Shown in pieces: positions 3,721 to 64,000 of a stretch of 64,000 bases of DNA. Origin of the DNA: Sphaerosporella brunnea (Eukaryota > Ascomycota > Pezizomycetes > Pezizales > Pyronemataceae); the NCBI GenBank assembly GCA_008704415.1, contig VXIS01000220.1, positions 1 through 64,000 of the forward strand. Reading direction: 5' to 3'. The translations under genes and the position numbers were made by a program. Within the stretch, counting starts at the first letter, position 1, and each line of letters opens with the position of its first letter. Under the pieces are notes generated by a model that made no database searches, was not told the DNA's origin, and worked only from the letters and a program-made list of their open reading frames with translations.

Positions 3721-5386
3721 GCTGCAAGGACTGATGGACTGAGACGTTTTGCTTTTTGCTTTTTCACTTTTCGACCAATTATTCTTATTCTTACAGTTGG
3801 GGACGCCTTTAACCTGTGAGGGGTTGGGGACATTCTTCCGGACTTCAAAATTACCAAAAACAGAATTAATTCTGCAATTAAGCTGCCAAGTTGCGAATTA
3901 TGCGTGCCAAGGTCGCGAATTAGGCAGAGAAGCCGCAGGTGCGCTTGCCATTTATGGTAATTGCGTCCTGCTAGCGCTGTTTTAATTGCCTTTTACAGTA
4001 GGTTTTGCAGGGGGACATTGCGTCTGACCCCCATACAAAATGCTTTTCTTTGAAAATTAACTGCTCCTCCAAAAATGCCTGGAAAAAAGAAAGCTCGTTA
4101 TTATTCGACAGAGACAGCTGTTGAAAATGAGGCCCAAGCCCCTCCGTCTCCAACTGCACGAATAGCTTATAGCTGGCCATCCGTCGGCCACAAGAGGCTG
4201 CGCTTACATAGTCCCACACTCCTTCGCTCACATCCTTCATACTCAAACCCGTAGTTTGTCCTGGGCGCAGCGGCGGCTGCCTCAGGCTCGGCGCTGCGCT
4301 GCTCCCCAGGCTCCAGAGACCCGGAGCCCCTTTTGAGGGAGGTGGGTGGGGAAAACAATCGCGGTGATGCCTCTCCAACTCCTAGGCCACTGGGGGGTGA
4401 TATGATACCCTCCGGCGACGCACCTCGCAGGGTGGTACTCCATCCGCCTGATCCTCCATCCTCATCCTCACTCCCAGCCACGGCGCGCCGTCAGATCTAT
4501 CGCCCCGACGCATAAGGAGCTTGCAAAAGAGAGCATTGCTTTCTTCACCAAAATATGTATTCTACATATCAGCCTACTACGTAGAGCAGTGAAACAATAA
4601 GGTGGCGGAGAGGATCAGGGGCGGGAGGTGTAGTGGGTCTGTCATGATCGTTCGCGGTCGCGTAAGGACATGCTCACACACACACACAGAGCGGTGAAAG
4701 AGCGTTGGACCAGGTGGCATTGCATACCGACCCAGCCTGGGCACAGGTCGGCTTGGCTGTTTTCGGCCCAGATTTCGACGGCGGAGGAGCTGCTATGTAG
4801 ATCTACGTGCAGTTGCCGGATTGACAGCGGTTGGTGCTCAGCCGTGCGTGTATGTATCACAAGATCGCTAGAATGAAAACCCCCCCCCTTTGCCTCAAGT
4901 TTGGCCGTCCGTGGACTCGGTAAACTTTTGGGGGCCGAGCAACTGTTGGTACCAGTGATGGCGGACTGGGTCTGGAGAATTTTCGAACTGTCGCTGGCCA
5001 TGGACCGAACCTTCGATGTGTTGATATCCCGCCACTCCTTGAACTTTGGAGGAGTTCTGCCAGCTCGACAACCGGACGAAGCCCATGGAAAAGATGAGCC
5101 AACCACAGAGGAACCGAAAGGCTGGTCGGCGTGAAAACCGCTCGCGTAAAAAGCACACATATGTAGTCCAGTGGGGGCTAAAGACAAGCGATGGGTGACA
5201 CAGGAGTTGGTGGAATGGGGATTACTCGGGCAACTCATTGCTCATTTTCTGGATGGTTCTCATAAGCGCACGAGGTGGATAGGTAGTTCGTGTTTGGATC
5301 CTTTTCTGTGTATTCAGCTCAGAAGTGCAGGCGCTCGAGCTGTCATCCACGAATTGTGGGGATTCTGGCTTGGACGTGGCCGTGGA

Positions 5387-5934
5387 CCAAATGTCTGGTC
5401 TGGACACCGATAAATATCTTCTCGGACGGGCTTTTTCAAGCGACGACGTGAGACGTGTAATTTTCTACTCTACTCTAGAGTACTCTACTGATCCGCGAGA
5501 TAAATGAACACGGCCGAAAGCTAGAACGAGCAAATGACCGCTTAATGATAACAGTTAAACGCCAACTGTGCCAATTGCAACGGCCAACTTCCCCAATGCG
5601 ACATGTTTTCCTCCGTATGGACTATCAAAAGTACAATCCAGGGCCAGGAGATAGAGACCTTACGCCATATCTCGGCATTTCATCCAGCCATTCTGGTCGT
5701 TCGATAAAATCCTACTGGTACTAGTAGAATGCTTGGCTCTTCCCCAAGTTAGAGTCGTGCTTCTAACCCCTGCGCTACATACTTAAAGACTCTAGTACTT
5801 GCTGCACAATATAAATATATTAATACCCCGGATATCCCGCGTCGTCCTGTGAAAAAAGGCTACGATACTCCCATGCATTTGCTGTCGAAACTGAGGTTGC
5901 ACCACGAGCTGAACGCTATTGCCGTTGACCCGCA
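5387..5934. other. Intergenic region with TATA box upstream of methyltransferase gene 1
   Basis: No gene seen. A TATA-like tataaata lies at 5810-5817, about 120 bp upstream of the ATG at 5935, and is the likely core promoter of the next gene. The palindrome ends at 5386. Confidence 0.5.
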
Positions 5935-12640: not shown

Positions 12641-13125
12641 CCAGCGTGAGAAGGAGAAGAGGAGAGGAGAGAAGAAAAGGAGAGGAGGAGAGACGGGAGG
12701 AGAAAGGAGGAGAGACGAGAGGAGAAAGGAGGAGAGACGGGAGGAGAAAGGAGGAGAGACGGGAGGAGAAAGGAGGAGAGACGGGAGGAGAAAGGAGGAG
12801 AGACGGGAGGAGAAAGGAGGAGAGACGGGAGGAGAAAGGAGGAGAGACGGGAGGAGAAAGGAGGAGAGACGGGAGGAGAAAGGAGGAGAGACGGGAGGAG
12901 AAAGGAGGAGAGACGGGAGGAGAAAGGAGGAGAGACGGGAGGAGAAAGGAGGAGAGACGGGAGGAGAAAGGAGGAGAGACGGGAGGAGAAAGGAGGAGAG
13001 ACGGGAGGAGAAAGGAGGAGAGACGGGAGGAGAAAGGAGGAGAGACGAGAGAAGAAAGGACGAGAGACGAGAGAAGAAAGGACGAGAGACGAGAGAGAGG
13101 AGAGGCGGAGATAAGGAGGAGAGAA
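12640..13125. repeat. 22-bp purine-rich minisatellite
   Basis: About 17 copies of a 22-bp unit (core agacgggaggagaaagg) from about 12690 to 13060, flanked by degenerate copies. One strand is almost pure purine. Because 22 is not a multiple of three, all three plus frames stay open and give spurious Arg/Glu/Gly ORFs; I do not treat these as genes. Confidence 0.95.
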
Positions 13126-14912
13126 GGAGAGAGGGCGGTATTTATAGTTGTCTGGAGGCCGGGTAATAGAGGGTTATCATAGGGCTATGCAGTGGTTGGG
13201 GGGGAATATTTGGCCGCTTCATGGCACGTTTGTTCGCGACATGAGATATCACTCGGTCAACACCGAAAAAGCTCAGCTCACTGGAATCCGAATCCGAATC
13301 ATCTGCCTGTGAAGCGTGCCAAGAACTACAGCTGTTACAGAAACAATAGGCCAAGCGGTATTCTGGAAGAGTGTTGTTTTAGCGCGCCAAATAAGACAAG
13401 AACATTGGCGGTGCTTCCTGGGAGGTGATGGTTGAAGATATGCGCTTGAATCTTATGGTTAACCATGGCCTCAATTCCAGCCGATGACAAAAGTCAAGCA
13501 AATATTCCCCAGCACTCGTGTTTGGCTTATTGTTACTGCAATAGCTGTAAATCAAGACAGCTGCCAACGGGGGAATTGAATCACTCGCTTCAACGTATCA
13601 CAACAACTGTATGGCGTCCAGGAAGTTTTGTATTCCGTCACTCCGGGCTGTGCGCAGAACAGAACCGTTCACTCCAGAAATTCACCAAAGCACTTGACTA
13701 GGTAACTGAAACATCCATGGAGCAGCCTATCTAGAGTCATTGGATTTCCCAGTGCGTACCGATACAAAATATGGCCTAATGAATAGTATCCATCTACACA
13801 AATTCGAACACGTCCAAAACCCTTTTGTCAGCTCTACAAGCCTATCCAGGGCTGACTAGGCTCAAAGCCGGAGCAACTGGGCTGGCTGCCCCGGTTTTTT
13901 GGCCGAGTGATTTACTGTGACACACACCTGCAGTGCAGTCGGCTCACTATCTCTCAATGCATGGATGCAACCCTGCACCAGACCAAAATCCGCGAATATT
14001 TAAATGAATGAACGCTATGTCTGAGGCCTACGCTCTGGGTGGTATGCTGAGGTGCTCATGCGAACCAATTATCAGCGACCAGCTAGAGTAGTCATTGCAT
14101 GCGCCGCTCAGCGGTTTTGCTGATTTGAAGCATTTTATTCGTCCAAAGAGCCTTGCCTCAACGTGAAGAAGCGATCATGAACTGGACTGTCGATCCTTGG
14201 AAAGACACCATTTTGTATGGGGCCCTTTTGCACAATGAAGCCTTTTCGATTACCTAGTTCGGTTAGCGAAACCTCTGCTATCGTCATGATCAACGCTCGA
14301 TACCTTTTTCGTCCAGCCCCGAGCCCTATCGCAATACCCCGCCAACTTTTCAAAGTCCTCGACACTGCAGGTCGCATGTACCTAGGGATGCAAGCATCTC
14401 TGTGATGATTGGTGCTGCCGGGCTGGTGTGCATAATCACAACCTTCTTTTGCCTCTGCAGCGCCGCTCAACCGCGGCACAACCATTCCGGGCTCACCAAA
14501 TCTGTGCTGGATTGGACACCGCATGCATGAGGTTCTTCTTCTGCAAGGCTGTCTGCCCCAGAAAGCAAAAGGTCTCGAGGGAAGCCAAATCCGAGGGAGG
14601 TTTCACACCTCTCAAGATATACCAGTAATAGCTTAGACTGATGGGCTGAGACTTTTTGGCTTTGCTTTTCCGCGTTCCCTTTGGGGTGAGCAGATACTCC
14701 AATGCGCGTCGACGGGTCGGTGGCAAAGTGGGGGGTTGCAAGCACACAAAGTAGAGTAATTATACCCCCCGGCTCCCGCGGGTAGCGAAAGTTGGGGCTC
14801 GGGTTCGGGGGGTTTGTAGAACATCACACGTGGAAGGAAGGGCGTCGGTGCTTAAAGAGCGCAGTCTGGTTTACAAACCCGCAGCTCGGGGTAAAAATTT
14901 ACTACGTCAACC
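13126..14912. other. Intergenic; degraded duplicate of the paralogue-4 upstream region near its end
   Basis: No gene recognised. At 14635-14680 there is a segment similar to the palindrome arms (gactgatggrctgagac). From about 14700 the sequence resembles the upstream region of methyltransferase 4 (17020-17130), including a cacgtggga-like motif, so the pseudogene that follows was duplicated with its promoter. Confidence 0.5.
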
Positions 14913-26828: not shown

Positions 26829-27362
26829 ATGTCCTCAACCACGTCCTCCACGACCACCGCCTCGACCTCTCCGACCTCCTCCCCTCCTGTCTCCCTCCTC
26901 CCCAACCACAGCCCCGCCTCGACCTCTCCGACCTGTCTCCCTCCTCCCCAGCCACAGCCCCGCCTCGACCTCTCCGACTTCCTCCCCTCCTGTCTCCCTC
27001 CTCCCCAGCCACAGCCCCGCCTCGACCTCTCCGACCTCCTCCCCTCCTGTCTCCCTCCTCCCCAGCCACAGCCCCGCCTCGACCTCTCCGACCTCCTCCC
27101 CTCCTGTCTCCCTCCTCCCCAGCCACAGCCCCGCCTCGACCTCTCCGACCTCCTCCCCTCCTGTCTCCCTCCTCCCCAGCCACAGCCCCGCCTCGACCTC
27201 TCCGACCTCCTCCCCTCCTGTCTCCCCCCTCCCCAGCCACAGCCTTGCGCTTCGCCAACTCAAGTTCTTCCCTTCGCCGCCCGCCCCCGGGGATCGGCGG
27301 AGAGCGGGCGGCAGAGGCTGGGGGTACTTGTTGGCGGGAACGGATTTTTCTTGCCAAGGTGA
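26829..27362 (+). CDS. Hypothetical Pro/Ser-rich repeat protein (57-bp in-frame repeat)
   Basis: ATG at 26829 (MSSTTSSTTTAST). A 57-bp tandem unit at about 26894-27240, in frame, encodes roughly six copies of a 19-residue unit PPPQPQPRLDLSDLLPSCL. The ORF runs into a perfect donor (CCAAG/GTGAGT at 27356-27361), so a downstream exon is likely. No known domain. The minus strand is also open through the same repeat, so coding strand is uncertain. Function unknown; could equally be a non-coding minisatellite. Confidence 0.35.
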   Translation: MSSTTSSTTTASTSPTSSPPVSLLPNHSPASTSPTCLPPPQPQPRLDLSDFLPSCLPPPQPQPRLDLSDLLPSCLPPPQPQPRLDLSDLLPSCLPPPQPQPRLDLSDLLPSCLPPPQPQPRLDLSDLLPSCLPPPQPQPCASPTQVLPFAARPRGSAESGRQRLGVLVGGNGFFLPR

Positions 27363-28299: not shown

Positions 28300-28605
28300 G
28301 GCGGAGAGAGAAGGAGAGGCGGAGAGAGAAGGAGAGGCGGAGAGAGAAGGAGAGGCGGAGAGAGAAGGAGAGGCGGAGAGAGAAGGAGAGGCGGAGAGAG
28401 AAGGAGAGGCGGAGAGAGAGGGAGAGGCGGAGAGAGAGGGAGAGGCGGAGAGAGAGGGAGAGGCGGAGAGAGAAGGAGAGGCGGAGAGAGAAGGAGAGGC
28501 GGAGAGAGAAGGAGAGGCGGAGAGAGAAGGAGAGGCGGAGAGAGAGGGAGAGGCGGAGAGAGAAGGAGAGGCGGAGAGAGAAGGAGAGGCGGAGAGAGAA
28601 GGAGA
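28300..28605. repeat. 18-bp purine-rich minisatellite
   Basis: About 16 copies of an 18-bp unit (gaggcggagagagaagga with a g/a variant). In one plus frame it encodes an (EREGEA)n tract inside an open frame at 27968-28714, but nothing else supports a gene. Confidence 0.95.
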
Positions 28606-32639: not shown

Positions 32640-33240
32640 CGGTGTCGACGGCCAGCGTTGGCCGTCGACAGAAGGTAAGGCTGGTCGTGCTTGATGAAGT
32701 TCTCATCCCCGAACCTGTTGCCGTAGATGGACCTGCCACCGGCGCCCTGTGCGGTGATGTCAGTTAATTTTTTTCTTCGCTCCTGGTCAGATGAAAGTAC
32801 TTACGCCGCGGGGGAGCAAGCTCAATGCTTGCGGCGGCGGCGGCGGTGGCGGCCCGGGGGGTGATGTGAGCTGATCGTGCCTCTTGACGAAGTCCTCGTC
32901 CTCGGACCTGTTGCCGTAGATGGACCTGCCACCGGCGCCCTGTGCGGTGATGTGAGTTAGCTATTCCTTCGTTCCTGGGCAGATGAAAGAACTTACGCCG
33001 CGGGGGAGCAAGCTCAATGCTTGCGGCGGCGGCGGCGGTGGCGGCCCGGGGGGTGATGTGAGCTGATCGTGCTCTTGACGAAGTTCTCGTCCTCGAACCT
33101 GTTGCCGTAGATGGACCTGCCACCGGCGCCCTGTGCGGTGATGTCAGTTCATTTTTCCTTCGTTCCTGGTCAGATGAAAGAACTTACGCCGCGAGGGAGC
33201 AAGCTCAATGCTTGCAGCGGCGGCGGCGGCGCCGGGGGGG
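32640..33240 (-). pseudogene. Cyclophilin (peptidyl-prolyl isomerase) exon relics, three tandem copies
   Basis: On the minus strand, three copies of an exon start encode [19 protein letters not shown] (about 33140-33080, 32950-32885, 32757-32690), the conserved cyclophilin segment around GTGGKSIYG.KFEDENF. The last copy continues [13 protein letters not shown], matching the KHTGPG.LSMANAG core, then is lost. Units are 191-193 bp; each exon is preceded by a short intron-like sequence starting GTAAGT and ending CACCGCACAG. Upstream cyclophilin sequence and the catalytic FHR region are absent, so this is a fragment. A (GCC)n stretch follows each of the upper copies. Family call is from the motif; pseudogene status is inferred. 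Confidence 0.75.
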
Positions 33241-33449
33241 GGGGGGGGGGAGTTAATGGTTGGTGTTTGCGGGAGATTGCAGCCGGTGAGAGGGAGCGCG
33301 AGAGGTAGTGCGCATCGCCAGCACACGCTGGTTCCGATGGTCGACGTGCTGGCAGGTAAGGAGCATCGCGTGGTCCTGCTGGCGAGTAGAGCAGATAGTG
33401 GGGGTTGTGGACTAGATGGTAGAGGTGTAATGGATAGGAAACGTTGATG

Positions 33450-55050: not shown

Positions 55051-56653
55051 TTATTCGGGCGTTTGGCCGTCGACTCCCCAGGGGCCGCAGTCACAAACCT
55101 TGCGACCCGGCCGGGGCTCCGGATGATCCCCTCGTGGGTTCGGGTACCGAGAGCACTTCAGTTGGGATTAGTATAAGAGTCTGAACTGGTCTTTGAGGGG
55201 AACTTACCCGGCGCGGGGACCCCTGGGGAGCCATTTGAGCAGCAGGTGGAGCGGGGGCGGTGGAGGCGGCAGGGGCGGTGGAGGCGGCAGGGGCGATGGA
55301 GGCGGCCGCTGCCACGGGACGCCCAAGCGGCCAGATTCCCTGGACGGTGTTAGCGTTGCTTAGACCCAGGTTGTATGAGAAGGTGCAAACGTACCCCTCC
55401 GGTGCCAAGCACCGGTGCAGGACCCTAGGAACGGTCAGCAAAGTTTCCAAGAACATTTACGAATGTCCTTACCAGCCGCATCCGCGGAGGGCCCTGGCCA
55501 TACTCCCGGCCTTGTGGCAGCCTCTAGAAAACATTTTATCAGCATCATTTTTGTCCGCAGTCAATTTCGAAGGGAATCAACATACCGACGGCTGCATTGC
55601 CATCTCCACGACCTTGGCATACATGTCTGGAGAGAGCTGAGGAAGGTTGTAGCGTTAACTCGAATGCGCAAAGTTCGAAGGGAATCAACATACCTCTTGC
55701 CGCAACTTTGCCAGCAGGTAGTCTGACAACGAGGGCGACTAAATTACACAGACATTGTTAGACATCGTCGCTATAAATATACTGGGTTTGAAGCAACGAC
55801 TTGGAAGCGTACCGATCGACGAATTTCCTAGAACATATTAGCATCATTTTAATACATGAGAGGTTGAAAACATACCGCAACTTGGTTGGCCGCCAACGCG
55901 GGGTTACCCTAGATTGTTGTGTTAAATCCGAGATACATCATTGCGTCAAGGACCTGTGCAGATTTCTAAGGAACTCGACTTACGCGCAGCTCCCTCATAT
56001 ACTTGAGGGCTTCTGGAAGCTTGCCATCGGAGAATTTGAAGTCTTGGAAGCGTACTGATGGATCGCTGGCCTAGAAAATATTAGCATCATTTTAATACAT
56101 GAGAGGTTGAAAACATACCGCCACTTTTTCTTCAGCCAACGCGGGGTTACCCTAGATTGTTGTGTTAAATCCGAGATACATCATTGCGTCAAGGACCTGT
56201 GCAGATTTCTAAGGAACTCGACTTACACGCAGCTCCCTCATGTATTTGAGGGCTTCCGCGAGCTATATATATAGAACATATTAGCTGAGAGATCTCCACG
56301 ATTTTGTCGTAGATCTCCGGTGTGATCTGAGGAAGGTTAAATCAACCTACGGCCAGCTGGTGAGAGAGAGGGGCTGGTGGATGCACCTAGAAAACATTTT
56401 ATCAGCATCATTTGTGTCCACATATACCACACGTGACGGTATGAAAAACAAACGACTGATTCGCCATTGCGATGAGCCTCATCGACCTAGATTGCGCGAC
56501 AGCGCAGCAAGGACAGATCTTTCTGAGGCTGATCCGCATGGCAAAGATCAGGATAGGGGAATAATGAGATGCGTAGAATAGCCAGATGTTTGTTTGAGCG
56601 AGGATTTTCGGTGTCGGGGTAGTACTAACCTTAGCGGGAGGAAAAACCTTCAT
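55051..56653 (-). CDS. Micro-exon gene 1 (unrecognised family)
   Basis: About 15 tiny exons, nearly all multiples of three with phase-0 introns. Minus-strand exons: 56653-56630 (MKVFPPAK), one near 56500 (VDEAHRNGESV), 56386-56351 (VHPPAPLSHQLA), about 56326-56300, 56262-56227 (LAEALKYMRELR), 56151-56119 (GNPALAEEKVA), 56070-55984 (ASDPSVRFQDF..), 55908-55876 (GNPALAANQVA), 55827-55813 (EIRRS), 55738-55694 (SPSLSDYLLAKLRQE), 55636-55586 (LSPDMYAKVVEMAMQPS), 55523-55473 (RLPQGREYGQGPPRMRL), 55424-55395 (GPAPVLGTGG), 55339-55208 (GIWPLG plus an Ala/Pro/Ser-rich tract), 55155-55051 (CSRYPNPRGDHPEPRPGRKV). Introns have GTATGT, GTAAGT or GTACGC donors and TTCTAG/TTTAG acceptors. The first four exons are uncertain: intron 56350-56327 would be only 24 nt. 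The C-terminal CDQC of gene 2 is CDCG here. Function unknown. Confidence 0.7.
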
Positions 56654-56761
56654 CCGAAGATGTGATGGGGTGGAGGAAAAAAAACAAGTAGGAAAAAAAA
56701 CAAGTAGGAAAACCTGTTTTTCCCGAAGGAAGTGGATTGGGGGATAAAGGGGAATCGCGCG

Positions 56762-56769
56762 TTTATATA
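56762..56769 (-). promoter_or_regulatory. TATA box of micro-exon gene 1
   Basis: TATATAAA on the minus strand, about 110 bp upstream of the ATG at 56653. Confidence 0.5.
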
Positions 56770-59476
56770 TGCGGCGCCAAGCTTGCTTCACTGAATTTCA
56801 CTCGAGTATTCAGCCGCATTTTAGTGTTGTGCGGGTTCCAGCCCTGGGCAAAAGCGACGCGCTGCTTCAAAAATCCACAAATTTTTATGCCGTTCATTCG
56901 TTGCTACTCTAGCTGCGGCAAATGTCAAGACGTCCTGGCACCGAGCTAGAAAAGCCCCTGACGCGTGGAAAGCACACATCTGGGGGCGCTGGCGACACCG
57001 CGGCGCCCAGGATCCATCTGTACAGATAGCACTGGTAGAAGAAAGAAAAAAGGTGGCAGAGCGGCGTCCCGATCCTGGGAAAAGTGTGAAGATATCGGGC
57101 GGCCCTTATACATAGAAGTCACCCCCTGGGAAACCGATCAACGACCTTTGCCCACACCTCCGTAGCTTCCAAGTGCTTCTTCAGTTCCAGTCCTGCGATC
57201 AGACATCCGTTCGGCGTCTCCACCGAGTCTTCTACGAGCAGCTATCCGATCCGACGCTGGCGACCCTTTCCTCTCCTATCAAGCACAGCGTTGAAACAAA
57301 CGCGTGACTGTTTATGCTTATGCATTTCAGCTACATATTCGGCAGCGCAGGATGCCGCCTCCTCGCCCTTATCATTTCAAGGCGTCGTCGTTGTGACATC
57401 ATGCTCTACCAGTGCGATTTCAGGAATGGATGCCATGAAGTCGCCCTACACCACGCACAGCGCGTGCTGAGAGGTCTATTGTCTTTTATCGACAACAGCC
57501 CTTGTGTGGCTTGGAGCTGTTGCAGCACCACCGCAGCAGATATTCAAGATGCGTTTCAAGGTGTCGTGCGTAGTGTAGATTCAATTTGCAAGGTGCTGCT
57601 TCTCGCCGCGCCGGCCATAACTCGTGTCTAAATAGCTAGCTATATGATATCTCACTCGGCGTGCTCAGATGCTCGAACCTACCGGTTCCAACGCTCCCCC
57701 TATGTGCCACCGAAACCACAAATAGCCTCAAACCGCCCATCCCATCTCAGAGCCGATGCCTTCTCGTTCTGCTGAGATTCCAAACCCGTTTATCCGACGC
57801 CCTTGCACTAACACTCCATCGGTGGTGTCCGCTACCTCGTTGAAAATCCTTGTGCATCTGTACTTCTGACAACTCCGCTTGTTCAAAAGGCGCCTGCTTC
57901 TGTTCATTGTTTCCAAGGCACATCATGCCGCTATCGTCAGGTGTACGGTTACAAGCTCCAATCCCTCCCTGTGGCAAACGCTTTGCTGTGCCAACTATCG
58001 CTGTCGGTTGAGCAACTGTAACCCCGTACATGGAACCAGGCCCAAGGTACGTTTTGTTGCTGGCGTTCATAGAAACTCCGTATGCCTTGTATGCTGGTGT
58101 GTGCAAATCTTTGTCCAATGCGCGCAGTCGATAGTGATGTACTGTCTTTGGTTAGAGTTTCGGGCACCCTCTTCGGCCATGGCGACATACCGCAATATCC
58201 TGGAGAACAGACCATCGGTTTCAGTTAAAAATGACCCGTATGCACCATCCGCCTCGATGTTCACTCTTCCACCAGATTCCGCCGTATCATTGAACTTCAA
58301 GGTTGACCAGTTGTGCAAAGTTGGTCGAACTTCGTTCCCGCTATCACCTCTCCTGAATACGATCCTCGCAGCGCGGGACCCAAATCCATTGCCTTCGGGC
58401 GGATCGCGAACACGAACCATCGTCTCCGCCGTGCTGCTCATATTCGGATGTTGCACATTGCTTGTACGTATCGTTGGCTTCAATCCTCTGTTCGTCACCA
58501 GATTCAGCCGTGCCGTCGAAAGTTTTCGTCAGTCCGCTGTTCAAAGTATATGGAACTTCGTGCACCAGATAGTCGGTGGTCTCTGTTCTCGGGTGCCGTC
58601 ATCTTCAAATCCAAAACCAATACCTTCACTGTGGGCAGAGTACACAACTCCCCCAGCCTCCAAGCCAACGTCGCTGATGGGGGACCAGTCATGCTGCTCC
58701 ACGTCGCTCCCGTGCTTATTCAATAAACCGTGATATCACCTGCCGTCGCCGTGTCCGTTGTGGTATCCCAATCAGCGCAATCCGGCTCGTTTTGATCCCT
58801 ACTAAACGCGTAGTTCACGTGGTAGCTAGGTTGAACCCTAGTTGCCCTACCACACCTCCAATGTTCACTCTCCGCCATTGCGCCACAGCGGTCACTTGGA
58901 TAACACTGCTACGTTTTGTCCGCTGTCACCTAGGGTATTCATAGGAGTCTCTGCTGAGCTTCCTTCGGGCTTCGCTACCTGTCATTGGTGCTTTACTGCT
59001 TCTCATTCACCACGCCCTTTCAACCGCTGTTGCAGATGTGGCTGTATTCAACAGCGCTACAGAAACGATTGATCAGGCTGCAAATGTCCTTTTCGGTAAC
59101 AGGCTTGAGGGAGTTCAATAGTTTTCGCTCTCTGTTGGTAACTTCGTGGAAGGGGAAAGGGCCGGGCAGCGGATGGATGATTCCTGTTGTAAGATGGTCA
59201 CAATTTTTGATCATAGGTCATCACTCACTAGCCGCATTAGGTAATATCCAACCTGCTGCTCATGCGGCATCACCTGGAACTTTGCTCACCGCCTTCCTTC
59301 TTATAATTCACCTGCTTTATTTCCTATGGTCCTGTAACTGATTCCGGACATTAACTACCTCAGTGGCGTGATACTTTGTCGTCATAGAGTCACCGGTATG
59401 ACTCTTTCCTATCGCTTTTTCTACTAGTACACTGGTCAGGCACGCAGCACATACTGGTTTCTTATATAAGGCTGTA
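56770..59476. other. Region between micro-exon genes; no gene recognised
   Basis: Overlapping open frames on both strands at 57660-58735 (for example a 284-aa plus frame and several minus frames with recurring TAESG/DGTAESGDEQ-type peptides near 58300 and 58510) hint at an internally repeated decayed gene on the minus strand, but no frame, splice set or family could be supported. Confidence 0.35.
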
Positions 59477-59909
59477 AAGCCCCGACCCACTTGATGGTGC
59501 ACCCCACTTGATAGTGGATTGATAAGATAAGAGATAATCTACGCGACAATTGATGACCTGCACCAAAAATAAAATGAAGGAAAATTCACAAATATACATA
59601 TTTTCGCGCTCTATGGCTGTGGCTACGCCCCGTTTTTACGCTTCTGACCCGCCTGACTCTTCGCTGCCAATTGTGCCTTTTTTTTTGCTGAGCTTCTTTT
59701 TCAGAATCTAGAGGGTCAGTCGCGGTTGCCATGACAATGAGCCAGATTTTCAAGCGGATTTTGGTGAGTCCAGGGCGCTATTGTGGAGCGAGGGGCGTGG
59801 GGCGTGCGGGCACAATCGCAAAATCTCACTCGACGGATTGACATTGCCGCGCAGATTATCTCTTATCTTATCAATCCACTATCAAGCACCATCAAGTGGG
59901 TTGGGACTT
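59477..59909. mobile_element. 433-bp MITE with ~65-bp terminal inverted repeats, TA duplication
   Basis: Left terminus begins aagccccgacccacttgatgg and the right terminus is its near-complement (aagtcccaacccacttgatgg); homology extends about 65 bp inward through ggattgataagataagag, with a 9-bp length difference. Flanked by TA at 59475-59476 and 59910-59911. Non-coding. Tc1/mariner-like by its TSD. Confidence 0.88.
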
Positions 59910-60950
59910 TATCTCTTCGAGCATGTTTGAGGACATCATGATCATCATTTCCACGCTTCCAGTTCATCGTCTAGAAACCAGAATGAAAGAATTGTTCAGC
60001 TCGTCTTACTCCCACCCTACCTCCAGGTGATTAGGACCCAAACCTCGCCAGAATAGCCCCCTTGGATCGTCTGCTTGAGAGCCTGAGCCTCTGAACGCCT
60101 CCATTCGTCTCTTGCATCAGGGAACGCGACCTAGGATTGGATGACATAATTCTGAGGGTTGCCTTCCTGAAACTACCCGCAATGTTGCTCCGCGTCTGGC
60201 GCCTTATGAGCGTTCTGAGCAGGAAAGAAACTGGTTATTGATTCCTCCTTTGGTTGCATCCAAATCGACATGCCGAGATTCGCCATAGTAAAGATGTAGA
60301 GAAGAGCACAACATCAAGCGGGTGTAGCACAGGTGGTGTAGATGTGGTGAGCTTGCAGAACTCACCGACGGGGGAAAATCTGGCAGGGTGACGGCGAAGA
60401 ATTGAGAATTGCAGTCCCCGCCGATAATCGAGCGCATTTCCTTTTTCCGTGATCTTCAGCTTTTCGCGCAATGGTTTGAAGGCCACTGCTTGGTTCCCCA
60501 CCCTCTGCCAAGCTGGCGCAGTCGTTGTGTTTCAAGATCCACGTCTCAACCGCCTTCTCAGCAGTGCTTTCTGGCTGTCAAGTAACCATCCTAGCGTGGA
60601 CTCAGCGAGGCTGAGATGCCACTGTCTCCCCTATGGAGCCAACGGTGCTGCGGTCTCGGGCTTGTGGGAAGCGCTCCTTGCGGCTTGCTGGAGCGGTTGT
60701 TTGCTCCAGACATCGTACGAGCGTGCGACGGACGGCAACGAAGGGGCGATGAGGGGGCGACAAAGTGACGCGGCAGGCGTTTTGTTTTTGGTGGTCGTCT
60801 CCGGTAATGCGAGTTGTTGTAGGCCTGGTCATAGTCACACTCCGCACCCAACTTGGACAGACAACACCAGAACGGCAGCTAAAAATCCTTCCGACACAAA
60901 AACACTACACAGACAAAAAAAAAAGACATTTTAAAGAACCACAACCAGCA
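59910..60950. other. Intergenic, no gene recognised
   Basis: Short open frames only; lies downstream of the micro-exon gene 2 stop at 60951. Confidence 0.4.
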
Positions 60951-63771
60951 CTACTCCGGGACCTTCTTCCTCTTGTAACCCCTGTCCTTGGCCAGACACT
61001 GGTCACAGACCTTCCGGCCTGGACGGGGCTCTGGATGAACCCCCTTGGGGTTCATGTACCGAGAGCACTTCTGTTGGGATTAGTATAAGAGTCTGAACTG
61101 GTCTTTGAGGGAGACTTACCCGCCTAGGCACGGAGGCCTGGCCCAGTGTGGCGGAAGCGACAGGGGCGGAGGTGGCGGCTGGGGCTGCGGAGGCGACGGC
61201 AGCAGAGGCGACAGGGACTGCGGAGGCGACGGCAGCAGGGGCGACAGGGGCGGCGGAGGCGACGGCAGCAGAGCCGGCAGGGCCTCCGCGGGGCCAGATT
61301 CCCTGGACGATGTTAGCGTTGCTTAGACCCAGGTGTACATGAGAAGGAGCAAACGTACCCCTCCGGTGGCAAGCACCGGAACGGGACCCTAGGAACGATC
61401 AGCAAAGTTTCCATGAACATGTCACAATGTCCTTACCAGCCGCCTCCGCGGAGGACCCTGACCATACTCCGGGCCTTGTGGCGGCCCCTAGAAAACATTT
61501 TATCAGCATCATTTTGTCCGCAGTCAATTTCGAAGGGAATCAACATACCGGCGGCTGCATTGCCATCTCCACGACCTTGGCATACAGTTCTGGAGAGAGC
61601 TGAGGAAGGTTGTAGCGTTAACTCGAATGCGCAAATTTCGAAGGGAATCAACATACCTGTCCTTTCAGTTTTCCGAGCACGTACTCGGAGAACGAGGGCT
61701 CCTAAATTACACAGACATTGTTAGACATCATCGCTGTGAAGAAAGTGTCAATTTCGAAGGGAATCAACATACGGGCGGCGGGATCTGGAACTAAAATACA
61801 GACATTGTTAGACATAATCGCTATGAATATACTGGGTTTGAAGCAACGACTTGGAAGCGTACCGATCGACGAATTTCCTAGAACATATTAGCATCATTTT
61901 AATACATGAGAGGTTGAAAACATACCGCGACTTTTTGACGCGCCAATGCCGGCTTATCCTAGATTGTTGTGTTAAATCCGAGATACATCATTGCGTCAAG
62001 GACCTGTGCAGAGGAACTCGACTTACGCGCAGTCCCCTCATGAGCTTGAGGGCTTCTAGCTTGCCATCGGGGAATTTGTAGTCTTGGAAGCGTACCGATG
62101 GTTCGCTGGCCTAGAAAATATTAGCATCATTTGTGTCCGCATTATTTCGAAGGGACTCAACATACAGCCAGTTTTTGCAAGGCTCTCCTCATTCTCAAGG
62201 CCTCCGGACGGAACTCATCGCTGTCAAGGTGTGAAGCAAGATCATGGGAGCGTAACATGGGGTCAACATGGGGGTGTGGGGGTGGAAGAATCTGGAAAAC
62301 ATGTTAACCCGAGATACATCAATGTGTTGACGAGGGTTCAACATACTTTTATTCGCTGCTCGGTGGTGTTGGCCATTGCCTGGTTCGAACGTTCCATGGA
62401 CTAAATTACAAAGCCATTGTTAGACCATGCCAATTTCGAGGGAACTCAACATACCTCAGCGCGCTGCTGTAAGCTGTTATCCAAGGGCCCGGAGTGTGTC
62501 GTTTGATTGGACTGCCGCATCGGAGGGGTTCGAATAAATCGGTCCACGACAAGGGACCACTGAGACTGCCGATCGGATTCCTGTTGAACAGACTGTGGCA
62601 TCTGAGGAAGCTGTGACGACTGAATGGACTGTTCCGGCTGATCGGACTCCTGTTGAACAGACTGTGGCATCTGAGGAAGCTGTGGCGACTGAATGGACTG
62701 TTCCGGCTGATCGGACTCCTGTTGAACAGACTGTGGCATCTGAGGAAGCTGTGGCGACTGAATGGATTGTTCCGGCTGATCGGATTCCTGTTGAATAGAC
62801 TGTGGCATCTGAGGAAGCTGTGCCGACTGAATGGATTGTTCCGGCTGAACAGTCGCAACAGACTGCTGATCGGAGGGAGAGGCGCGTTCCTAGAAGCTGT
62901 CAGCATCAACCGGGTCTACGCGACAGGATGAAACCATACGTCCGATGCACCAGTGTAGATCAACATCGCCTAGATTATCACGTTAGAACTCGACATAAAT
63001 CATTGCGACTGAACATACAGCCATGGACTTCTTGAAATCGTTGATCACATCGGTTAGAGTCATCCCAGGCTTTCTAGGAGGGCGTTCTGAAGACATGATT
63101 GAGAGAGCGCGAGGAGAGGTAGCGGGATGAGGGATGGATTGGTGCGAGAAAGGATGGATTGGTGCGAGAAAGGATGGATTGGTGCGAGGAAGGATGGATT
63201 GGTGCGAGAAAGGATGGATTGGTGCGAGAAAGGATGGATTGGTGCGAGAAAGGATGGATAGGTGGGAGAAAGGATGGATGGGTGGGAGAAAGGATGCAGG
63301 GGTGGGAGACGAGCCCAACAGGCGGTTATTGGCAAATAACTTGAATCTCCAATAAGATGTGCAGGAAGGAGTGATGGGTATAGGTTGGTATAGTGTGACA
63401 GGACGGAGAATAAACCGGTGCAGATCAAAAGCATTCGGAGTGATATAAACATACCTGCGGAATCGGGTTGATATTGGTCGACTACAGTAAAGCATGGTTA
63501 GCTCGAGGACGGTGAAAGCGAATGTGGGGTAAGGGGTAATCGCTTGAGCGACGGAGAACAGGCGCAGGTCAAGAGCAAAGCGCAGGTTCAGAATGAATAA
63601 ACATACCTGCCGAAGGTTATCGTAAACGATGGTTAGCTTGAGGACGGTGCCAATGATGAAAGCAAATATGGGGTAAGAGGTAATCGCTCGAGCACGGGTA
63701 TAATATGAACGAGGTAGGGAGCAATGATTTGAACGTACCTGGTTGGGGCTCATTTCGAGCTTATCGTTCAT
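60951..63771 (-). CDS. Micro-exon gene 2 (unrecognised family)
   Basis: Paralogue of the gene at 55051-56653. Minus-strand exons, all with phase-0 junctions: 63771-63739 (MNDKLEMSPNQ), 63481-63455 (STNINPIPQ), 63096-63019 (MSSERPPRKPGMTLTDVIND..), 62969-62940, 62889-62455 (145 aa, Gln-rich with 23-residue repeats), 62400-62347, 62291-62166, 62110-62027, 61958-61926 (DKPALARQKVA), 61877-61863 (EIRRS), 61790-61773 (FQIPPP), 61701-61657, 61599-61549, 61487-61437, 61388-61359, 61302-61120 (Ala/Val-rich), 61070-60951 (CSRYMNPKGVHPEP..KVCDQC, basic end KRKKVPE). Starting at 63096 it encodes about 450 aa. The two upstream exons may be an alternative 5' end or a separate transcript, since no in-frame acceptor before 63096 was found. 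The Cys-containing end could bind metal. Function unknown. Confidence 0.75.
62581..62856 (-). repeat. 69-bp in-frame tandem repeat in micro-exon gene 2
   Basis: Four copies spaced exactly 69 bp (starts at 62581, 62650, 62719, 62788) encoding units like MPQSVQQESDQPEQSIQSPQ. 69 is a multiple of three, so copy-number change keeps the frame. The third and fourth copies are nearly identical to the others, suggesting recent expansion. Confidence 0.9.
63130..63309. repeat. 20-bp minisatellite upstream of the 63096 ATG
   Basis: About nine copies of a 20-bp unit (gattggtgcgagaaaggatg, later variants ggtgggag). It is pyrimidine-rich on the coding strand and lies just upstream of the possible internal start at 63096, either as 5' UTR/promoter or within an intron. 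Confidence 0.9.
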
Positions 63772-63780
63772 TGTTGTGTG

Positions 63781-64000
63781 TTGGTTGGAAGAGAGGTATG
63801 AAGGGGCAGAAGTTAAGAAGCGAGCTTCGAGATCGCGGGTGTAGGTTTTATATCAGGGCGTAGGGTGTGCGTGTTCGGGGTGGTTTGCTTGTTGGTTGGA
63901 AGAGAGGTATGGAGGGGGAAGAAGTTAAGAAGCGAGCTTCGAGATCGCGGGTGTAGGTTTTATATCAGGGCGTAGGGTGTGCGTGTTCGGGGTGGTTTGC
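63781..64000 (-). promoter_or_regulatory. Tandemly duplicated core promoter of micro-exon gene 2
   Basis: About 110 bp present twice in direct orientation (63781-63891 and 63892-64000). Each copy has, on the minus strand, a GATATAAAA box (about 63847-63855 and 63958-63966). The proximal box is about 80 bp upstream of the ATG at 63771, a usual fungal spacing. The window ends inside or at the end of the second copy. Confidence 0.65.

Follow-up and report, generated by a model that had tools for sequence, protein, structure and literature searches.

The shuffling of exons through introns of the same phase has been inferred mostly from old animal genes. Conserved introns accompany divergent exons in the snake-venom PLA2 genes, and conotoxin genes are variable in their toxin parts. 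Among published systems, cited throughout from excerpts of the sources, the micro-exon genes (MEGs) of schistosomes place approximately 80% of their coding sequence in exons of 6–36 bp, and nearly all of their products are either secreted or anchored in the membrane (PMC5825161). The bicycle genes of aphids have on average about 17 exons, which are unusually small and nearly all of phase 2 (PMC9168663), and their proteins are gall effectors with saposin-like folds (PMC13041983). Introns are conserved within a conotoxin superfamily (PMC3862624), introners are spread across many genes (PMC4457414, PMC9860276), and the excerpted report on Xlr2 of Trichoderma virens describes functional micro-exons as previously undescribed in filamentous fungi (PMC11121469). 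The openly licensed literature that was listed contained no matching fungal case, either of micro-exons or small symmetric exons, or of conserved introns with divergent exons. Here we describe a gene with 15 coding exons, gene A, and its relatives in Sphaerosporella brunnea, an ectomycorrhizal member of the Pezizales whose 51.6-Mb genome was annotated by the JGI pipeline, mycelial RNA-seq being produced in the same project (PMC6908789). The genome paper also names the public RNA-seq sets SRP214822 and SRP215074. Gene A lies in a stretch of 64,000 nucleotides (the window; positions 1 to 64,000 of contig VXIS01000220.1, here labelled C136), and genome scans covered the 640 contigs of a 50.57-Mb S. 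brunnea assembly.

We consider it fairly probable that gene A is the fullest member of a small orphan family of S. brunnea, which evolves by the copying, loss and swapping of whole exon-intron units. Gene A itself is a real, if unusual, protein-coding gene and its structure is well supported; the protein spliced by eye is the deposited one at 100% over all 450 amino acids (aa). Its main features are:

60951–63096, minus strand: gene A, encoding 450 aa in 15 exons, with its stop codon at 60953–60951; identical to deposited FN846DRAFT_994131
62571–62848, minus strand: 69-nt repeat in four copies within exon 3 (Gln-rich repeat)
61863–61877, minus strand: exon 8, 15 nt, EIRRS
61773–61790, minus strand: exon 9, 18 nt, FQIPPP, without a counterpart in gene B
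60954–61070, minus strand: exon 15, basic C-terminus with C-x9-H-x9-C-x2-C
63739–63771, minus strand: first exon of A in the initial annotation, MNDKLEMSPNQ, outside the deposited model
63779–64000, minus strand: 112-nt repeats upstream of A, extending past the window to ~64.24 kb of C136

The exons measure, in order, 78, 30, 435, 54, 126, 84, 33, 15, 18, 45, 51, 51, 30, 183 and 117 nt (the last without the stop), and all 15 are divisible by three; the 14 introns, of 48–72 nt, are all GT-AG and all in phase 0. Two exons are below 27 nt, five are at most 33 nt and eight at most 51 nt. The initial annotation, made from the letters alone, had read two related genes of about 15 exons each, with exons down to 15–18 nt, nearly all multiples of three and joined by phase-0 introns. 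That description is largely borne out for A, exons 8 and 9 being the very short ones, and its symmetry and phase extend to the best model of the second gene, B, in which only 11 exons could be recovered. The deposited model of A begins at 63096 and not at 63771 as first proposed; the exons formerly drawn between 63.1 and 63.77 kb are possible, although unsupported by that model. Directly upstream of the deposited start are eight copies of a 20-nt repeat (63132–63296), and the region upstream of A has matches on C136 only, apart from an 83-nt piece found twice on C72.

The introns of A are related to one another. When pairs scoring at least 18 were taken further against mononucleotide shuffles (p<0.005), 16 of 91 intron pairs showed significant likeness outside the splice sites, as against 0 of 105 exon pairs, and 10 of the 14 introns were related to at least one other. 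The excerpt of PMC1626468 orders the intron phases of fungi by frequency and gives no percentage, hence a phase-0 share of 45–50% was assumed, under which 14 independent introns would all be in phase 0 with a probability of 1.4e-5 to 6e-5. Since related introns are not independent, they were also counted as six classes, for which the chance is about 0.016. The uniform phase was probably inherited by copying, the introns being relatives that carried their phase along, and with a single phase the gain or loss of an exon-intron unit preserves the reading frame.

Such changes are visible in the comparison with gene B, which lies on the same strand:

55051–56241, minus strand: best open model of B, encoding 198 aa in 11 phase-0 exons; uncertain as a coding gene
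55800–56256, minus strand: tandem duplication of a 243-nt unit that holds exons 6 and 7 and the introns belonging to them
56292–56422, minus strand: rearranged pieces resembling A exons 11 and 12 and the adjoining intron ends, upstream of the B model
56600–56830, minus strand: promoter, 5' leader and first exon common to B and six other contigs

All 11 exons of the B model are multiples of three and its introns are GT-AG and in phase 0; no counterparts of A exons 1–5 and 9 were found in the B region (blastn, E 1e-3). The expectation that symmetric exons could be duplicated or lost without a frameshift is borne out, exons 6–7 being doubled in B and exon 9 being present in A only. The intron between the tandem copies resembles intron 7 at its start and intron 5 at its end, the two sharing a 15-nt run; a single base separates the chimeric end from intron 7, which leaves this as weak evidence by itself. 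Where A has introns 8 and 9, B has a single intron whose start resembles 8 and whose end resembles 9, and exon 9 was cleanly gained or lost. Junctions fall within introns in three kinds of change: the exon 6–7 duplication in B, the gain or loss of exon 9 in A, and the exchange of modules between loci. The junctions of shuffling are thereby readable base by base in a fungal family. Recombination between like introns would produce these changes of units.

B may be a short gene or a decaying copy. Its last exon retains CSRYPNPRGDHPEPRPGRKVCD and then diverges, with C-x-C in place of the lost CxxC end; by eye, the shared leader has no open-frame join to the model, and a protein search over lengths of 102–323 aa matched no deposited B protein. 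The protein modules named at the outset divide accordingly between the two genes: EALKYMREL and GNPALAxxxVA are the forms in B, for which A has EALKLMRGL and DKPALARQKVA, whereas the Gln-rich repeat and the CDQC end are found in A, the latter being absent from B.

What the initial annotation did not contain is that the introns have changed slowly while the exons diverged. Aligned between A and B, exons have 432 identical and 134 different positions and introns 487 and 31 (p 8e-17, some ends being poorly aligned). With gaps set aside, introns 6, 7, 10 and 11 differ at 0/68, 0/48, 1/57 and 0/61 sites and introns 12, 13 and 14 at 6/48, 4/55 and 3/49. The intron total of 14/386, which leaves out introns 5, 8 and 9 for want of a one-to-one partner, compares with 17/59 at four-fold sites (p 9e-9) and 33/250 at codon positions 1 and 2 (p 1.6e-5), neither coding count including exon 14 or the final part of exon 15. 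Within B, the tandem copies differ at 13/69 exon and 1/123 intron sites (p 8e-6), and A differs from the first B copy at 19/66 and 1/116 (p 9e-9). Hypermutable CpG sites were ruled out as the cause, the contrast persisting outside CpG (exons 69/385, introns 14/395, p 3e-11).

NG86 estimates for exons 6–13 gave a synonymous divergence (dS) of 0.25 and a nonsynonymous divergence (dN) of 0.16, and 0.48 and 0.17 when exons 14 and 15 were added, the alignment of exon 14 being uncertain. The excess of silent change means that selection on the protein is not the sole cause, and positive selection in that role was rejected, dS exceeding dN. Across six loci, exons 13 and 15 have proportions of synonymous differences (pS) of 0.30–0.70 and of nonsynonymous differences (pN) of 0.02–0.18 over 15 non-independent pairs. 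As pN is below pS in every pair, the protein is in use now or was until lately, and judging by these counts the amino acids of the two exons are held by purifying selection. In the same non-independent pairs, interior divergence of introns 12–14, where present, is 0.05–0.125 and below pS in 15 of 15; promoter divergence (11–25%) falls between that of introns and that of silent sites. A control repeat at 32.7–33.2 kb gave no such reversal (introns 18/171, exons 20/312, p 0.11). This repeat, at 32680–33244, consists of 2.8 copies of a putative 191-nt exon-intron unit and is not a proven gene. A second control, the methyltransferase paralogs at 6.6 and 17.6 kb, was given no weight because their introns could not be aligned with confidence.

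Introns that evolve more slowly than adjoining silent sites are the opposite of the usual pattern and need explaining, the candidates being constraint on the introns, homogenisation of introns together with exchange of old exon versions, or a process confined to exons. This is the most surprising part of the results, although it is not established without a genome-wide control. It is possible, if rather unlikely, that strong purifying selection acts on the interiors of the introns, which might for instance serve as splicing signals for very short exons, and that the exons have diverged at a normal rate after old duplications. Introns 12–14 retain their position-specific identity across loci, the boundaries between intron and exon are sharp, and the silent-site divergence is what old duplication would leave. 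However, A and B agree at all 177 bases of introns 6, 7 and 11, and intron 6 of B agrees with its tandem copy at all 75, which exceeds the expected need of a splice signal, and introns are also kept in copies that are apparently decaying. Neither intron structure nor intron-intron pairing was found, duplex energies being weaker than those of shuffles, and Rfam returned no match for the introns. Promoters diverge less than silent sites too, though they are themselves constrained. The 0/177 count leans towards homogenisation and exchange, or an exon-confined process, over constraint, with the stretches being short.

Under the reading by exchange of units, exon versions would be old and reshuffled among copies, or altered by an exon-confined process, while introns are kept alike. 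In its most specific form, which we regard as speculative and on balance unlikely, this would be a fungal exon-cassette system: near-identical introns of the same phase would act as recombination handles for the exchange of old, divergent exons among dispersed copies, or change would be confined to exons, for example by conversion with reverse transcripts of spliced mRNA from divergent copies. If true, such a system would generate combinatorial proteins without frameshifts.

The initial annotation had raised the question of a larger family, and further members are present in the same genome. The C-terminal exon has at least eight matches on at least five contigs (C136, C74, C334, C133, C612), and the promoter and leader module occurs on at least seven (C136, in B; C74, C334, C612, C630, C269 and C35), its copies differing pairwise by 11–25%. 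An EALKYM match on C54 was judged after inspection to be due to chance. Protein searches covered about 5.8 billion sequences and required shared five-residue words and bounded lengths, so that distant relatives can escape them. With residues 200–450 of A, only A itself was recovered among the best 7,992 candidates, from which Ala-rich words may have displaced others; residues 404–450 gave A as the single candidate. A composite, B-like query recovered two S. brunnea proteins, P0002 (C74) and P0003 (C334), whose deposited versions appear by eye to translate portions of the two loci in frames other than that of A. No relative outside S. brunnea appeared in these word-based searches with A and B-like queries.

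A second many-exon gene is present on C621 with a relative on C35, and the intron before its KPRD exon is common to C612 and C630. Among these four loci this 53-nt intron has 3–7 differences; the 45 nt of exon upstream have 11–16 differences in 39–44 sites (C612 and C630 only 2/42), and the exon downstream 10–24 in 36–45. By eye, an intron on C269 starts like those of B and C35 and continues like those of C612 and C630. The C621 gene (4300–5700, minus strand) and its C35 relative (4500–5600, plus strand) appear by eye to form a second many-exon family, with the first three introns alike and in phase 1 and later ones in phase 0; between these two loci introns again look better kept than exons, as in the family of A. 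Pieces of C621-type genes are tandemly repeated on C194, C619, C245 and C156, most with broken frames. Remains which we take to be hAT-transposase-like were seen by eye at 2046–2837 of C133 and ~2300–2500 of C612, beside family copies.

The protein of A may be intracellular, with short helices in a largely disordered chain, and the basic C-terminal end might bind zinc and nucleic acid. By eye the N-terminus is hydrophilic and cysteines occur only near the C-terminus. The predicted helices span residues 14–36, 173–198, 227–243, 258–267, 272–285, 295–304, 309–319, 414–417 and 434–442, the last beginning beside CDQC. Residues C413, H423, C433 and C436, together with the following modelled helix and basic residues, suggest a putative zinc knuckle, a pattern that we take to be like the ends of GATA or copper-fist proteins.

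Several points weigh against the unit-exchange reading and against any firm view of function. The deposited model of A may be partly ab initio. The contrast between introns and exons comes from short stretches and one usable control, itself only a putative unit. The AlphaFold model of A, built from three sequences, reaches a pLDDT of 54 and a pTM of 0.21. The best Pfam match of A, TFIIA, has an E of 0.082, below the cut-off; Pfam had no match for P0002, P0003 or the C-terminus, NCBIfam had none, a PDB sequence search with the last 100 aa of A had none, and the Rfam null given above belongs here too. All four ligands are present in A, C74 and C334, but C133 lacks the H and the compared copy on C612 the second C of CxxC. 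Read in A's frame, exon 14 of C74 contains a stop and has 94 nt, that of C334 has 133 nt, neither length being divisible by three, and intron 13 of C74 has lost its donor GT. Given these lesions and the lost CxxC of B, much of the family is perhaps decaying. The stronger proposition, that the family is mostly dead, its recent duplicates drifting without function and its open frames owed to chance or annotation, draws on the same broken exons, the loss in B and the lack of exact function signals in domain searches. We consider it quite unlikely, since A is intact across 15 exons, the only member found intact over its length, pN is well under pS in exons 13 and 15 in all 15 pairs, and neutral drift would not spare introns.

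More doubtful still is the suggestion that A's introns are introners private to one locus, copies that were inserted at a preferred phase into coding sequence already there, no exons being duplicated. The likeness of A introns across positions, which A exons do not share, is what it would predict, but it does not account for the closer match of same-position introns, relative to exons, in the comparison of A with B, and in B exons were clearly duplicated along with introns. A genome scan with one A intron motif (up to two mismatches) placed all six matches on C136 and none elsewhere; genome-wide introners are unsupported, the single motif scanned being private to that contig. It is very improbable that the family consists of secreted effectors akin to those of MEG or bicycle genes, diversified by positive selection in contact with plant roots: A is an orphan, lineage-restricted and has many small exons of one phase, but no hydrophobic N-terminus was seen by eye, dS exceeds dN and the defining features of MEG and bicycle genes are lacking.

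Elsewhere in the window, the first 5.39 kb of the contig (1–5386) match their reverse complement at 99.7%, and each strand carries the same open frame of 199 aa; this palindrome at the contig end may be a fold-back from assembly or a genuine inverted repeat. Four stretches between ~5.9 and 18.2 kb (5.9–7.2, 10.0–11.6, 15.0–15.4 and 17.2–18.2 kb) match one protein, presumably a methyltransferase. Tandem repeats of 22, 57 and 18 nt lie within open frames at 12683–13133, 26857–27244 and 28300–28605.

Set beside the described systems, A shares with schistosome MEGs its short symmetric exons and orphan protein, but only 126 of its 1350 coding nucleotides lie in exons of 36 nt or less, against approximately 80% in exons of 6–36 bp, and it has no sign of secretion by eye where MEG products are secreted or anchored (excerpt of PMC5825161). 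Many small exons (8/15 of at most 51 nt) of nearly one phase recall the bicycle genes, but those are in phase 2 (excerpt of PMC9168663) and A is in phase 0 at 14 of 14 introns; their proteins have saposin-like folds, whereas A has cysteines only in the C-terminal region. The model of A (pLDDT 54) is too poor for a comparison of folds. The likeness to micro-exon and effector families that the initial annotation proposed is thus not upheld. Conotoxin genes also have conserved introns, but consist of two or three exons with long introns and encode secreted peptides, unlike the 15 exons and 48–72-nt introns of A. Introner-like elements resemble A in having similar introns at different positions (16/91 pairs) and differ in occupying many genes, where the A motif occupies one locus (6/6 on C136, for one motif). 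Xlr2 is likewise a case of a micro-exon in a filamentous fungus, but a single regulated one in a zinc-cluster transcription factor, unlike the many exons of A. The family of A is distinct from the MEG, bicycle and introner classes, and is a variant of the many-small-exon orphan type.

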